From Flavobacteriales bacterium (GTDB lineage: Bacteria; Bacteroidota; Bacteroidia; Flavobacteriales_E; Vicingaceae), in NCBI GenBank assembly GCA_905339165.1, contig CAJPFH010000016.1:1-50499 (forward strand): a stretch of DNA of 50,499 nt, written 5' to 3'. The number at the start of each line of letters is the position of its first letter. Positions within the stretch are counted from its first letter, which is position 1. Both the position numbers and the translations under genes were made by a program. The notes beneath the pieces were generated by a model. The model had not been told where the DNA came from. It worked only from the letters and a program-made list of their open reading frames with translations, and searched no databases. Of the stretch, positions 2,273 to 7,177 are shown one piece after another.

Positions 2273-2338
2273 TAATTTAAAGTCGAAACCTATATTATGA
2301 ATAATTTCGTTTTAAAACAGTTAATTCAACTTAGTAAT

Positions 2339-3010
2339 ATGTACAGAGTATTCCTTTATATAATAGCTGTTGTTTTTATACTTTCAAATTTTTCTTGTAG
2401 AAAAAAAGATGATGATAGTACGAATACTGAAATTGAAAAAGAAAAAAGAATGTTATCGGAAGCTGTAAAATCTTTTTTATTCAGGCAACATTCTTATTGG
2501 GTTTATACAAACAGTACCAATGGAAATTTAGATAGTTTGGTAGTTATTGCAACTAAAAACGATTTTTGCTACGATGCACATCCGAAATATGGCGGAGGAA
2601 AATATGTGAAGGAATATGTAGAAACAACATATAATTATTTTGTAGGAAGCCAAAATGCAAGTTACAACTATTGGGAGTACGCAATGTACGATTACATAAA
2701 ACATCAGGGAGGGGGTGAATACGGACAGTATGGACAACCCATATTTTCGTGTACAAAAACAATAGGAGCAGAATTTAATGGTTTGGTATTAGAAGAACTA
2801 TTTCCAACTATGGTTATTAACGGAATTACATTTAATGATGTTCGGAAATTTAAACTGGTAGCAGAAAAACAAATTTATCCTAAGATATTTCAGGAAGACA
2901 GACTTCTTTACTATTCGCCTTATGTTGGATTAGTGAAGAAAGTAATAATGCCTACATCCGGAGATACAACTACTCTTGAGTTGCTTCGGTGGAATGTTAT
3001 TCCTTATTAG
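2339..3010 (+). CDS. Putative lipoprotein of unknown function
   Basis: From the ATG at 2339 the protein has 223 residues and begins MYRVFLYIIAVVFILSNFSC, a compact lipoprotein signal with the acylated cysteine at residue 20, followed by a charged RKKDDDS tether. An in-frame ATG at 2297 would add 14 residues before the signal; the shorter start gives a normal signal length and lies after a near-consensus promoter element, TAATTTCG at 2302-2309. The mature part is rich in Tyr and aromatic residues with alternating beta-type segments. I recognise no domain or catalytic motif. It is divergent from the esterase gene and is followed by a long regulatory region. Probably an outer-membrane or periplasmic lipoprotein. 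Confidence 0.65.
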   Translation: MYRVFLYIIAVVFILSNFSCRKKDDDSTNTEIEKEKRMLSEAVKSFLFRQHSYWVYTNSTNGNLDSLVVIATKNDFCYDAHPKYGGGKYVKEYVETTYNYFVGSQNASYNYWEYAMYDYIKHQGGGEYGQYGQPIFSCTKTIGAEFNGLVLEELFPTMVINGITFNDVRKFKLVAEKQIYPKIFQEDRLLYYSPYVGLVKKVIMPTSGDTTTLELLRWNVIPY

Positions 3011-3104: not shown

Positions 3105-3138
3105 TTTGGAAGTTGAGAAAAAATATGTTGTATATTTG
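3105..3138 (+). promoter_or_regulatory. Promoter of the metY-metX-hom leader
   Basis: TATATTTG at 3131-3138 is a perfect TAnnTTTG -7 element. A TTTG at 3105-3108 lies 22 nt upstream as the -33 element. Transcription would begin around 3144, about 40 nt before the riboswitch P1 helix. Confidence 0.7.
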
Positions 3139-3306: not shown

Positions 3307-3316
3307 AAAACAAAAA

Positions 3317-3451
3317 ATGAAAACAAACAAAACAATCAAACCAAACGAAAAAAAAGAGTTCAGAGAAGATTTCTTTGAAACAAACTCTCATTCCCTTCAC
3401 AACACTTGTTGTGGCCTGATGTGTTGTTGCATGTGCTGTTGCATGTGTTAA
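3317..3451 (+). CDS. Cys/Met-rich leader peptide between riboswitch and metY
   Basis: A 44-codon ORF starts at ATG 3317, about 10 nt after the SAM aptamer, and ends at TAA 3449-3451. The first 30 residues are polar and Lys/Asn-rich. The last 14 read CCGLMCCCMCCCMC, with nine cysteines and three methionines. This density is far above chance and looks like a leader peptide whose translation senses charged Cys-tRNA (and perhaps Met-tRNA). Cysteine-rich leader ORFs that attenuate sulfur operons are known in mycobacteria; applying that here is inference. Alternatives are a metal-binding microprotein or a chance ORF. The Cys codons overlap one arm of a possible hairpin (3429-3442 with 3518-3529). 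Confidence 0.6.
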   Translation: MKTNKTIKPNEKKEFREDFFETNSHSLHNTCCGLMCCCMCCCMC

Positions 3452-3540
3452 CGCTACGGGCTATTTCCTTACTTTAAAAAGTATTAGTTCCAATGCGTTT
3501 TCAAACAAACGCCCAAGGCAACTACATGCTATTTTTTTCT
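3429..3540 (+). promoter_or_regulatory. Possible attenuator structure in the metY leader
   Basis: GCATGT and GTTGC within 3429-3442 (inside the Cys codon run) can pair with GCAAC and ACATGC within 3518-3529, giving 11 base pairs with a small internal loop. A T7 run follows at 3532-3538. Between the arms, GCGTTT (3495-3500) can pair with AAACGC (3507-3512), or GCGTT (3495-3499) with AACGC (3450-3454); the last two exclude each other. The layout resembles a translation-controlled attenuator, but the 75-nt gap between the outer arms is long for an intrinsic terminator. The remainder of 3011-3589 holds only a weak 7-bp hairpin (3064-3080) and AT-rich spacer. Confidence 0.4.
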
Positions 3541-3562
3541 TATTCTAAACCAATTAAACTAA

Positions 3563-4939
<1,377 letters not shown>

Positions 4940-4944
4940 TAGAA

Positions 4945-5973
4945 ATGAGTTTGAAATATTACAAACACAATCAGGCTTTGGTGTTGGAGTCGGGAAGAAT
5001 TCTTCCCGACTTTACCATAGCTTACCATACTTTCGGAAAACTAAACAAAGAGGCAAGCAATGTAGTATGGGTAACTCATGCGCTTACCGCAAATTCCGAT
5101 GTATTCAATTGGTGGAAAGGATTGTTTGGAGAGAATAGTCTATTCAACCCGAACGAATATTTTATTGTATGTGCTAACGTATTGGGTTCGCATTATGGTT
5201 CAACGGGGCCATTAAGCATTAATCCGGATACCGGAAGTCCATACTATCACAATTTTCCGGAAATTACGGTGCGAGACATGGTGGCGGCTCTCAATTTATT
5301 GAGAGAATATTTACAATTAAAAAAAATACACACGCTTATTGGAGGTTCTTTAGGTGGACAGCAAGCGCTGGAATGGAGTATTACAAATCCGCAGCTAATA
5401 GAAAATTTAATTCTCATTGCAACCAATGCTCAACACTCTCCCTGGGGAATTGCATTTAATGAAAGTCAGCGATTAGCCATAGCTGCTGACAGAACTTGGT
5501 ATAATCACTCCCATAACGCTGGTGCAAAAGGATTGAAAGCAGCCCGTTCCATAGCTCTGTTAAGTTACCGAAATTATAACACCTATTTGGAAACACAAAA
5601 AGACGATGATGAAAAAATTAACAATTTTAAAGCACTTACCTATCAACAATATCAGGGAGAAAAATTAGTAAATCGTTTCAATGCTTTTTCGTATTGGTAT
5701 TTATCAAAAGCAATGGATTCTCATCATGTAGGAAGAAAAAGAGGAGGAATTGAAATGGCTCTTTCATTAGTTAAATCTAATACGCTAATTATAGCCGTAG
5801 ATTCCGATATTCTTTTTCCGGTTTCGGAATCTGAAACTTTATACCATGGTATAAACGGAAGTAAACTGGAAATAATTAATTCGCTTTACGGACACGATGG
5901 TTTTTTAATTGAAACGAAAACATTAACAGAAAAAATTGAAAAACAACTTAAAAAATATGTAGTATATGAGTAA
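4945..5973 (+). CDS. metX: Homoserine O-acetyltransferase
   Basis: A 342-residue alpha/beta hydrolase-fold acyltransferase that activates homoserine for MetY. The nucleophile Ser135 lies in GGSLGGQQALEW, the acid is in AVDSDILFP (about Asp288), and the histidine is His317 in YGHDGF. The N-terminal VLPDFTIAYHTFGKLN segment is conserved in MetX. Acetyl rather than succinyl transfer is assumed from the MetY neighbour. The gene overlaps the start of hom by 8 bp, so the two are translationally linked. A 24-bp perfect palindrome (4988-5011) lies inside the coding region where residues ESGRILPD are encoded. Confidence 0.95.
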   Translation: MSLKYYKHNQALVLESGRILPDFTIAYHTFGKLNKEASNVVWVTHALTANSDVFNWWKGLFGENSLFNPNEYFIVCANVLGSHYGSTGPLSINPDTGSPYYHNFPEITVRDMVAALNLLREYLQLKKIHTLIGGSLGGQQALEWSITNPQLIENLILIATNAQHSPWGIAFNESQRLAIAADRTWYNHSHNAGAKGLKAARSIALLSYRNYNTYLETQKDDDEKINNFKALTYQQYQGEKLVNRFNAFSYWYLSKAMDSHHVGRKRGGIEMALSLVKSNTLIIAVDSDILFPVSESETLYHGINGSKLEIINSLYGHDGFLIETKTLTEKIEKQLKKYVVYE

Positions 5974-7177
5974 TAAAAATAAAATTGGATTACTTGGCTT
6001 TGGAACAGTTGGACAAGGTTTTTACACTTATCTCCAACAATATGGAGAAGAAAGAAAGGTGGAAGAAATAGTAATTAAAAATTCGGAAAAAAACAGAAAC
6101 AAGCACAATGTAAAGTTTACCACCGATACTCATCACTTATTTCAACCCGAAACCGATACAATTGTTGAATTAATTAGTGACGAAGAACAAGCCTATCGAA
6201 TAATTAAAGAAGCATTACAGAAAGGAAAAAAAGTAGTTTCGGCCAACAAAAAAGCCATTGTTTATCATTTGGAAGAATTTATAAAAATGGAAAAGAAATT
6301 TGGAGGTCGATTGCTCTACGAAGGTGCTGTGTGTGGTAGTATTCCTATTCTAAAAATTGTAAACGATTTTTACCGTTTCGATAACATTTCAGAAATAAAA
6401 GGAATTTTTAATGGAACTTCTAATTATATTTTAACACAACTTCTAACCAAAGGAATTTCTTATTCCGAAGCTTTGCAACAGGCCAAAGAAAAAGGTTTTG
6501 CCGAGGAGAATCCTATTTCTGATGTGGGCGGATATGATTCACTGTATAAACTATTATTGCTCTCTGCCCATGTTTACGGCAAACTTATTTTGCCAAATGA
6601 GGCCTTAAATATTGGTATAGAAAACATCTCGCAAAACGATATTTTTTTTGCAAAAAAACACGGTTTGAAAATTAAGTTACTTGCTTCTGTAAAAAATGTG
6701 CAAAACGAAATATTTATAAGTGTACTGCCTGCTTTGGTTCATCAAGAAAGCGAATTGTATGGTGTTGATAACGAAATAAACGGTATTAAAATTTATTCCG
6801 AAAAGTTAGGTTCGCAGTTTTACAAAGGCAAGGGGGCGGGCAAATTGCCCATAGGGCATACCGTTTATTCCGATTATAAAATTTCTGACGGTTACCGTTA
6901 TACCTACGATGCTTTAGAAAATAGGAACGATTTTAAATACTCTAAACAAAATCTGCATTTAATTTATTCCGATAGAATTTATTTGTTGGAAAAGCATATT
7001 CCCGATATAGAATTTATGAGTGATGAAAGCGGTTTTGGGTATCTCACTACCGAAAAGTTAATATCCCTGAAAGATTACTTGTATCAACACAACCTTTCTG
7101 TAATCGCATTAAACGAAAAAATAAAATTAAAAATTTTAAATGCTTCTCTAAAGCATTATGGTTGTGCGTTTGTTTAA
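5966..7177 (+). CDS. hom: Homoserine dehydrogenase
   Basis: A 403-residue NAD(P)-dependent homoserine dehydrogenase, reducing aspartate semialdehyde to homoserine. The Rossmann motif GLLGFGTVGQG is at the N-terminus, VVSANKKAI follows, and the catalytic-domain signature GIFNGTSNYILTQL is near residue 150. EKGFAEENPISDVGGYDS corresponds to the conserved EAD.DP.D.G region. There is no fused aspartokinase; a separate kinase gene lies at 46101. I see no clear C-terminal ACT domain. Placement after metY-metX puts homoserine supply under the same SAM control. Confidence 0.92.
   Translation: MSNKNKIGLLGFGTVGQGFYTYLQQYGEERKVEEIVIKNSEKNRNKHNVKFTTDTHHLFQPETDTIVELISDEEQAYRIIKEALQKGKKVVSANKKAIVYHLEEFIKMEKKFGGRLLYEGAVCGSIPILKIVNDFYRFDNISEIKGIFNGTSNYILTQLLTKGISYSEALQQAKEKGFAEENPISDVGGYDSLYKLLLLSAHVYGKLILPNEALNIGIENISQNDIFFAKKHGLKIKLLASVKNVQNEIFISVLPALVHQESELYGVDNEINGIKIYSEKLGSQFYKGKGAGKLPIGHTVYSDYKISDGYRYTYDALENRNDFKYSKQNLHLIYSDRIYLLEKHIPDIEFMSDESGFGYLTTEKLISLKDYLYQHNLSVIALNEKIKLKILNASLKHYGCAFV

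Follow-up and report, generated by a model that had tools for sequence, protein, structure and literature searches.

A SAM-I riboswitch followed by a predicted Met/Cys leader-peptide attenuator upstream of metY-metX-hom in a Flavobacteriales bacterium

The metY-metX-hom genes of a Flavobacteriales bacterium are preceded by a compound leader, in which a SAM-I riboswitch aptamer is followed directly by a short open reading frame (ORF) ending in a run of methionine and cysteine codons. The element was found in a window of 50,499 nucleotides, i.e. the whole stretch of DNA that was analysed. This compound leader is real and conserved; its parts are ordinary, the combination is unusual. The leading account, to which we assign a probability of roughly two thirds (0.68), is that the SAM-I riboswitch and a Met/Cys attenuator together control metY-metX-hom.

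According to protein family models, metY (3590-4939, + strand) codes for an O-acetylhomoserine aminocarboxypropyltransferase (TIGR01326, 695.2 bits, cut-off 495.1), metX (4945-5973, +) for a homoserine O-acetyltransferase, and hom (5966-7177, +) for a homoserine dehydrogenase (NF004976, 273.8 bits, cut-off 205). The best families for MetX, TIGR01392 (336 bits, cut-off 500) and PRK00175 (312.3 bits, cut-off 331), both stayed below their cut-offs. The name of the MetY family itself includes cysteine synthase. Elsewhere in the genome, which has a listed completeness of 100, the CysK model reached 289.5 bits (below its cut-off of 350.95) and the CysE model 92.9 bits (below 210.65). The CysK match is a 454-aa ORF that also aligns with the whole length of the cystathionine beta-synthase (CBS) model, scoring 494.3 bits (cut-off 510.25); a second protein passes the cystathionine gamma-synthase model NF005871 (526.6 versus 513). 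Since only 8 of 14 control genomes passed the cut-off of the CysE model and none that of the CBS model, these cut-offs are not decisive, and the low CysE score is no proof of absence. Taken at face value, the models indicate that homocysteine from MetX/MetY probably feeds methionine directly and cysteine via reverse transsulfuration. Because homocysteine probably feeds both, it makes sense for a leader to sense both amino acids. Upstream of the operon there is also a 237-aa ORF (2297-3010, +) with a start that looks lipoprotein-like by eye and with no NCBIfam match at E 0.001.

The aptamer (RF00162; 3183-3307, +) was detected by cmscan with 64.8 bits, against a gathering score of 44.4, and covers positions 1-108 of the model. 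It passes the curated threshold over the full model and on that ground is a SAM-I riboswitch, with SAM binding predicted. It is the sole Rfam match in the region, and the only RF00162 match of the genome at E <= 0.001. For comparison we assembled 46 genomes of the host family with 58 RF00162 matches, 20 of them before metX or metY and 38 before metH (37 assigned by tblastn, and one, L023, from reading the protein start); an order-wide search of 32 genomes with a completeness of at least 90 yielded no other family. At L023 a strong hairpin with a T-run, resembling an intrinsic terminator, comes directly after the SAM-I aptamer, in contrast to the metX/metY loci. A candidate promoter box, TATATTTG (3131-3138, +), lies 44 nt 5′ of the aptamer and has the form TAnnTTTG, which parts of a study on Bacteroidota give as the sigma-A promoter consensus of this phylum (PMC9723704). 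The same form occurs 37-44 nt 5′ of the aptamer at each of the 20 metX/metY loci of the host family, and at 27 of the 38 metH loci, there at distances of 22-93 nt.

The leader ORF (3317-3451, +) comprises 44 codons, MKTNKTIKPNEKKEFREDFFETNSHSLHNTCCGLMCCCMCCCMC. Its ATG at 3317 is at position +10 after the aptamer, leaving 9 nt between the two, and it ends with CCGLMCCCMCCCMC (tail LMCCCMCCCMC) ahead of the stop codon at 3449-3451. Codons 35-44 (MCCCMCCCMC; 3419-3448, +) are the presumed Met/Cys regulatory codons, as suggested by the tail composition of the host-family leaders: their final 12 residues contain 40.4% Cys and 26.2% Met (20 leaders), compared with 0.2% each in the leader bodies. 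All 20 metX/metY loci of the family have an ORF that starts 1-9 nt past the aptamer and carries Met and Cys among its last residues, with tails such as MMHSMCCCCMC and MMMCCMCCCMC. Under a strict rule, which asks for at least three Cys within the last 16 residues, 18 of these 20 loci were positive, and none of the 38 metH loci. A hairpin inside the leader ORF, right before the Met/Cys run (3398-3413 in the window), was noticed at the corresponding place in relatives and gave p = 9e-4 in the host-family arm-swap test described below; it is a possible pause hairpin.

Cys-run leaders are also present outside the host family. A MetY search in named genomes retained 80 loci, 60 of which have an aptamer within 900 nt upstream. 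A strict Cys-run leader was found at 41 of these 60, in records that include Hymenobacter, Pontibacter, Chryseolinea, Mucilaginibacter, Pedobacter and Saprospiraceae, and was absent at the other 19, five Algoriphagus among them. A sample of the class comprised 119 genomes, 88 with RF00162, from which 112 loci were examined, omitting four matches above the cut-off that were already in the family set and one below it (G088:C32). Nine of these loci lacked the core motif in a regular-expression search and were oriented by the strand recorded in the search table; loci with a tblastn gene match beyond the interval from -30 to +1000 nt relative to the aptamer end were classed as "other". Leaders were detected at 9 of the 12 close metY homologues and at 2 of the 14 other loci, and at none of the 69 metH, 14 distant PLP enzyme and 3 distant metX loci. 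Two class-sample loci, L231 and L245, both from genome G095, show Cys-run ORFs after SAM-I aptamers, and their genes are not metX, metY or metH by tblastn. The start of the L245 gene resembles that of a TonB-dependent receptor.

When all sets are pooled, Cys-run leaders follow the aptamer at 68 of 92 metX/metY loci, the other 24 lacking the strict run, versus 0 of 106 metH loci (Fisher 6.5e-33, relatedness ignored, and with the named and class sets possibly sharing near-identical species; the L064 and L218 leaders, for example, are almost identical). In shuffled metX/metY spacers about 1.5 such ORFs would be expected in 92. As mean spacers are shorter before metH (112-150 nt) than before metX/metY (264-301 nt), chance ORFs are rarer before metH. 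In 52 of the 68 loci the leader ATG lies at +8 to +13 after the aptamer, an offset that is overstated for named loci with an nhmmer-shortened aptamer match. Of the 56 loci with both a TGYTGYTGY run and an ATG at -12 to +33 of the aptamer end, 45 have the first run in the frame of the first such ATG (binomial p 6.6e-13, not corrected for relatedness); five further loci have the run and no ATG in this interval. Both Cys codons are used (195 TGT and 150 TGC in 61 leaders), which, like the frame bias, is an indirect sign that the leader may be translated. In the named-genome leaders Met is enriched alongside Cys, with 9.1% in the tails versus 0.8% in the bodies.

The long Cys runs and the wide presence of these ORFs could also point to a functional Cys-rich microprotein, e.g. 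for thiol or metal binding, in place of a regulatory leader. Outside close relatives, however, the composition of the tails is the only shared feature that we noticed among the leaders, and their lengths vary from 28 to 64 aa. Moreover, the ORF is tied to aptamers before metX and metY, not metH, and in the host family the tail codons are part of a covarying RNA helix (see below). A microprotein was thus judged unlikely, indeed hardly credible.

The RNA downstream of the aptamer is more structured than chance, both over 3308-3600 (z -3.59, 0 of 200 shuffles as good) and over 3415-3545 (z -3.27, 1 of 200). Three helices are predicted here. In helix 1:2 (3414-3461, +) the Met/Cys codons pair with the region of the stop codon; it appears in the long fold, and when folded alone the region 3411-3464 reaches -26.1 kcal/mol. 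Helix 2:3, the putative antiterminator (3450-3499, +), consists of 3450-3454:3495-3499 and 3458-3463:3485-3490 and was seen in a local fold of 3447-3504 with -11.3 kcal/mol. Helix 3:4 (3480-3530, +), which is present in the MFE folds, is the hairpin of a predicted intrinsic terminator located before the first gene, with the pairs 3480-3484:3526-3530, 3485-3489:3520-3524, 3490-3491:3517-3518 and 3495-3500:3507-3512 (+), and the sequence continues with a T7 tract at 3532-3538 (+). The 3480-3530 hairpin was not among the + strand results of a simple terminator scanner, which accepts only uninterrupted stems with loops of 3-8.

To model the switch we moved a ribosome-shaped mask codon by codon along the leader and scored the mean probability of the 3:4 pairs, P(3:4). 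In the window this value is 0.97 in the free RNA and with the ribosome at the stop codon. It falls to 0.28, 0.12, 0.09 and 0.24 with codons 35, 36, 37 and 38 in the A-site, recovers to 0.71 at codon 39, and is 0.94 or more from codon 40 to the stop. Scoring by helix segment gave the same course in the window. With a shuffled arm 2 the window performs comparably (4 of 60 shuffles were as low in one run, 6 of 40 in another); therefore, the window alone is no proof of a switch.

The first-pass annotation had proposed a different geometry, in which the Cys codons at 3429-3442 would pair with 3518-3529 as the terminator stem itself and a paused ribosome would block this stem. The 11 standard pairs do exist, six between 3429-3434 and 3524-3529 and five between 3438-3442 and 3518-3522 (codon 38 begins at 3428 and codon 42 ends at 3442), and they are indeed followed by the T7 tract. 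The annotation had also pointed out two mutually exclusive inner pairings, which are borne out as 3450-3454:3495-3499 and 3495-3500:3507-3512. In favour of this geometry, L041, the sole congener compared, keeps 10 of the 11 pairs and has lost three of the five middle pairs of the 3480-3530 terminator. Covariation between the two arms, the lack of which the annotation itself had regarded as fatal, was looked for in 19 relatives and not found (swap p = 0.66), and the predicted occupancy of the 11-pair helix was just 0.00-0.07 in the window across 12 ribosome states. The arms are 75 nt apart, and a local hairpin already occupies 3517-3530. The most stable duplex that the Met/Cys run (3422-3448) can form with 3460-3545 has -17.1 kcal/mol; a value at least as low was obtained with 98 of 1000 dinucleotide shuffles and with 141 of 1000 random 86-mers taken from the window. 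With covariation, occupancy and shuffles all against it, we rejected this 1:4 pairing, which has a very small chance of being right. What stands of the earlier proposal is an attenuator before metY with a Cys-codon leader on which a paused ribosome would favour read-through; what is not supported is the role of the Cys codons as a terminator arm. The earlier proposal made no mention of the SAM-I riboswitch, of the terminator at 3480-3530, of the Met codons within the run or of the hairpin between the Met/Cys codons and the stop region.

The main support for the helices 1:2, 2:3 and 3:4 comes from the host family. RNAalifold, run on MAFFT alignments of the region after the stop codon, predicted a structure, a weak one, for just one of three sets; the g8 and all-leader sets gave none. 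Because the arms misalign, we replaced it by an arm-swap test, in which the pairing of each arm with its own partner is compared with that to partners from other species. This test covered 19 of the 20 loci, leaving out the congener L041, and used windows chosen after the host-family folds had been seen. It yielded p = 1.5e-4 for helix 1:2, 5e-5 for 2:3 and 5e-5 for 3:4, and two controls were negative (0.67 and 0.53). Covariation within the host family thus supports 1:2, 2:3 and 3:4 as mutually exclusive helices, as predicted from sequence. As a global-MFE terminator finder missed most hairpins, we used a local hairpin-plus-U scan, which located a terminator-like hairpin with U-tract behind 16 of the 20 host-family leaders versus 2.9 expected; no terminator was detected by this rule behind L043, L046, L051 and L054.

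The folded switch was uneven among the relatives. It was strong in L001, L036 and L041, partial in L037, L039, L042, L049, L055 and L057, and without change in L038, L040, L048 and L056, and in L045, L052 and L053 the scored hairpin moved the wrong way. Compared with shuffled arm 2, the drop was rare in L036 (0 of 40 shuffles), L041 (1), L039 (3) and L049 (4); in the other leaders it was not, with the exception of L045 and L053, in which the scored hairpin starts at the stop codon. The unevenness is partly explained by the score, which averages all pairs although the upper hairpin is formed in either state. Even so, the uneven switching in these folding models remains a weakness of the attenuator model. 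L041 (genome G005) has an unchanged Met/Cys run but a degraded terminator middle stem and U-tract, and P(3:4) of the outer pairs is at most 0.30. This damage would mean either a weaker terminator or decay of control. On balance, the sequence comparison supports a tRNA-sensing attenuation step, and we hold it to be highly probable that the leader serves as a sulfur-amino-acid attenuator in the host family.

In the named-genome set the corresponding signals are faint. The swap test on its 41 leaders gave p = 0.09 for 1:2, 0.0004 for 2:3 and 0.01 for 3:4, with own partners merely 0.05-0.67 kcal/mol better than shuffled ones, and these p values are probably driven by composition differences. The pairing put forward by the first-pass annotation scored p = 0.03 there, a value that the same differences make unreliable. 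Terminators were little enriched (14 of 41 leaders versus 9.2 expected), and among ten named leaders with a terminator only L064 (4 of 60) and L116 (3 of 60) switch better than most shuffles. Support for a transcriptional mechanism, as judged from sequence, is confined to the host family. The low terminator enrichment would fit leaders in which ORF and aptamer control metY translation or RNA stability instead of transcription termination, and the portion of PMC2258182 that deals with riboswitch modes names translation attenuation as the commonest outside Firmicutes. Against such control stand the hairpin and U-tract behind the leader, both in the window and in the family, as well as the position of metY, which begins 51 nt after the T7 tract and outside the folded elements. 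We consider this explanation decidedly less probable than transcriptional attenuation, and improbable overall.

How the aptamer could be coupled to the attenuator is suggested by its flanks. In the host family, nucleotides adjoining the aptamer extend P1 up to the start codon of the leader. An extended P1 duplex of -3 kcal/mol or lower was predicted at 17 of 20 metX/metY versus 2 of 37 metH loci (p 1.2e-9; here, as in all our Fisher and binomial p values, relatedness is ignored), and the difference was weaker in the class sample, with 5 of 12 metY versus 8 of 69 metH loci (p = 0.02). Since the space between aptamer and leader ATG is so small, P1 in its SAM-bound form would, on the simplest interpretation, cover the start of the leader. 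A ribosome-binding site inside the 3′ side of P1 is a SAM-I mode described in PMC2258182, as far as the pertinent part of that paper goes. Spacing and pairing thus suggest that SAM may gate translation of the leader ORF, and we slightly favour the view that it acts through leader initiation.

Alternatively, the Met/Cys attenuator could work alone as outlined, the aptamer being independent of it, e.g. by a long-range effect on the downstream terminator, and not gating leader translation. The two elements do occur apart. A Met/Cys-run ORF is present at four (L117, L132, L133 and L135) of the 18 metY loci that have no Rfam SAM match, as rechecked with an aptamer HMM and the Rfam gathering score, and other metY loci, including the five Algoriphagus, have an aptamer without the run. 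As attenuator-only and aptamer-only metY loci both exist, the modules are separable. The locus L133 carries the label Lysobacterales and is possibly on a misbinned contig. The close placement of the leader ATG, however, leaves little room for another expression platform, and the P1 extension is specific to metX/metY in the host family, so that an independent aptamer appears unlikely, if less so than control of translation or stability.

The compound SAM-I and Met/Cys leader would operate as follows. Plentiful SAM would bind the aptamer and stabilise P1, whose extension reaches the leader start codon, and the leader would remain untranslated; helices 1:2 and 3:4 would then form and transcription would end at about 3538. 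At low SAM the leader ORF would be translated. A shortage of Met-tRNA or Cys-tRNA would then make the ribosome pause in the Met/Cys run (codons 35-38 in the window) and cover arm 1; arm 2 would pair with arm 3, and the terminator would be prevented. If both charged tRNAs are plentiful, the ribosome would reach the stop codon and cover arm 2, allowing the terminator to form. Hence, transcription of metY-metX-hom would take place at low SAM when, in addition, a sulfur amino acid is scarce. In its most general form, the proposal is that the expression platform of the riboswitch is the start codon of an amino-acid-sensing leader, which makes SAM, Met-tRNA and Cys-tRNA the inputs of a three-input gate, widely used in Bacteroidota for metX/metY, not metH, and composed of separable modules. 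We put this forward tentatively, at a little short of even odds.

The components are familiar from well-studied systems. The trp, his and leu attenuators comprise a leader ORF with codons for the product of the pathway near its stop, mutually exclusive 1:2, 2:3 and 3:4 helices, and a terminator before the first gene. The metY leader resembles them in having regulatory codons near the stop, exclusive helices and a terminator before the first structural gene, and differs in coding for two amino acids, Met and Cys, and in the aptamer directly 5′ of its start codon. Likewise, the aptamer scores above the RF00162 gathering threshold and precedes methionine genes as in other SAM-I (S-box) riboswitches; its nearest start codon, however, belongs to a leader peptide and not to a metabolic gene, and the metH copies in the family have no such ORF. 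Polycysteine attenuators of mycobacteria are reportedly the subject of a 2020 paper by Canestrari. Passages of PMC1262725 describe Cys-run leader ORFs before cys/cbs operons in Actinobacteria, and state that no conserved terminator hairpins are found in the Mycobacterium leaders. Like the metY leader, they are short ORFs upstream of sulfur genes with consecutive Cys codons close to the stop, but they belong to another phylum and other genes; the metY leader has Met codons in addition, and those passages mention no riboswitch.

Further partial parallels exist. According to extracts of PMC8632094, uORFC-8-2 before cysS in Rhodobacterales has tandem Cys codons contained in its first stem, and a terminator stem with U-run; unlike the metY leader it has two Cys codons, precedes another gene and, in these extracts, lacks a riboswitch. 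For ppe2 of M. tuberculosis, sections of PMC11260477 report a B12 riboswitch with a translated uORF that is needed for translation of the gene via termination-reinitiation. A riboswitch-controlled, translated leader upstream of a gene would be common to both systems, if SAM gates the metY leader as we infer, whereas the ligand is another one and those sections contain no amino-acid-sensing attenuator. In S. meliloti, downstream of a SAM-II riboswitch controlling translation of metA, an intrinsic terminator lies between two start codons, and the authors found no SAM-driven antiterminator (PMC9373788, in part). The order of SAM riboswitch and terminator before a methionine gene is the same as for metY, but the aptamer class is different, the two starts are in frame in one gene, and that part of the article does not describe a series of regulatory codons. 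Excerpts of PMC9723704 and PMC7366714 touch broadly on attenuation by leader peptides in flavobacteria and on short ORFs in the 5′ UTRs of Bacteroides. A full-text literature search, with most subscription papers and supplements outside its scope, retrieved no SAM-I riboswitch joined to a Met/Cys leader attenuator.

The predicted small ORFs are a further yield of the analysis, since their shortness makes it likely that annotation overlooks them. Sister SAM-I aptamers before metH, which lack the leader ORF, and metY loci with only one of the two modules constitute a natural experiment, and the two-part logic is open to test with small reporters. If the proposed mechanism is true, sulfur entry into homocysteine would be controlled, in much of a large phylum, by a single leader that senses first SAM and then charged tRNA(Met) and tRNA(Cys).
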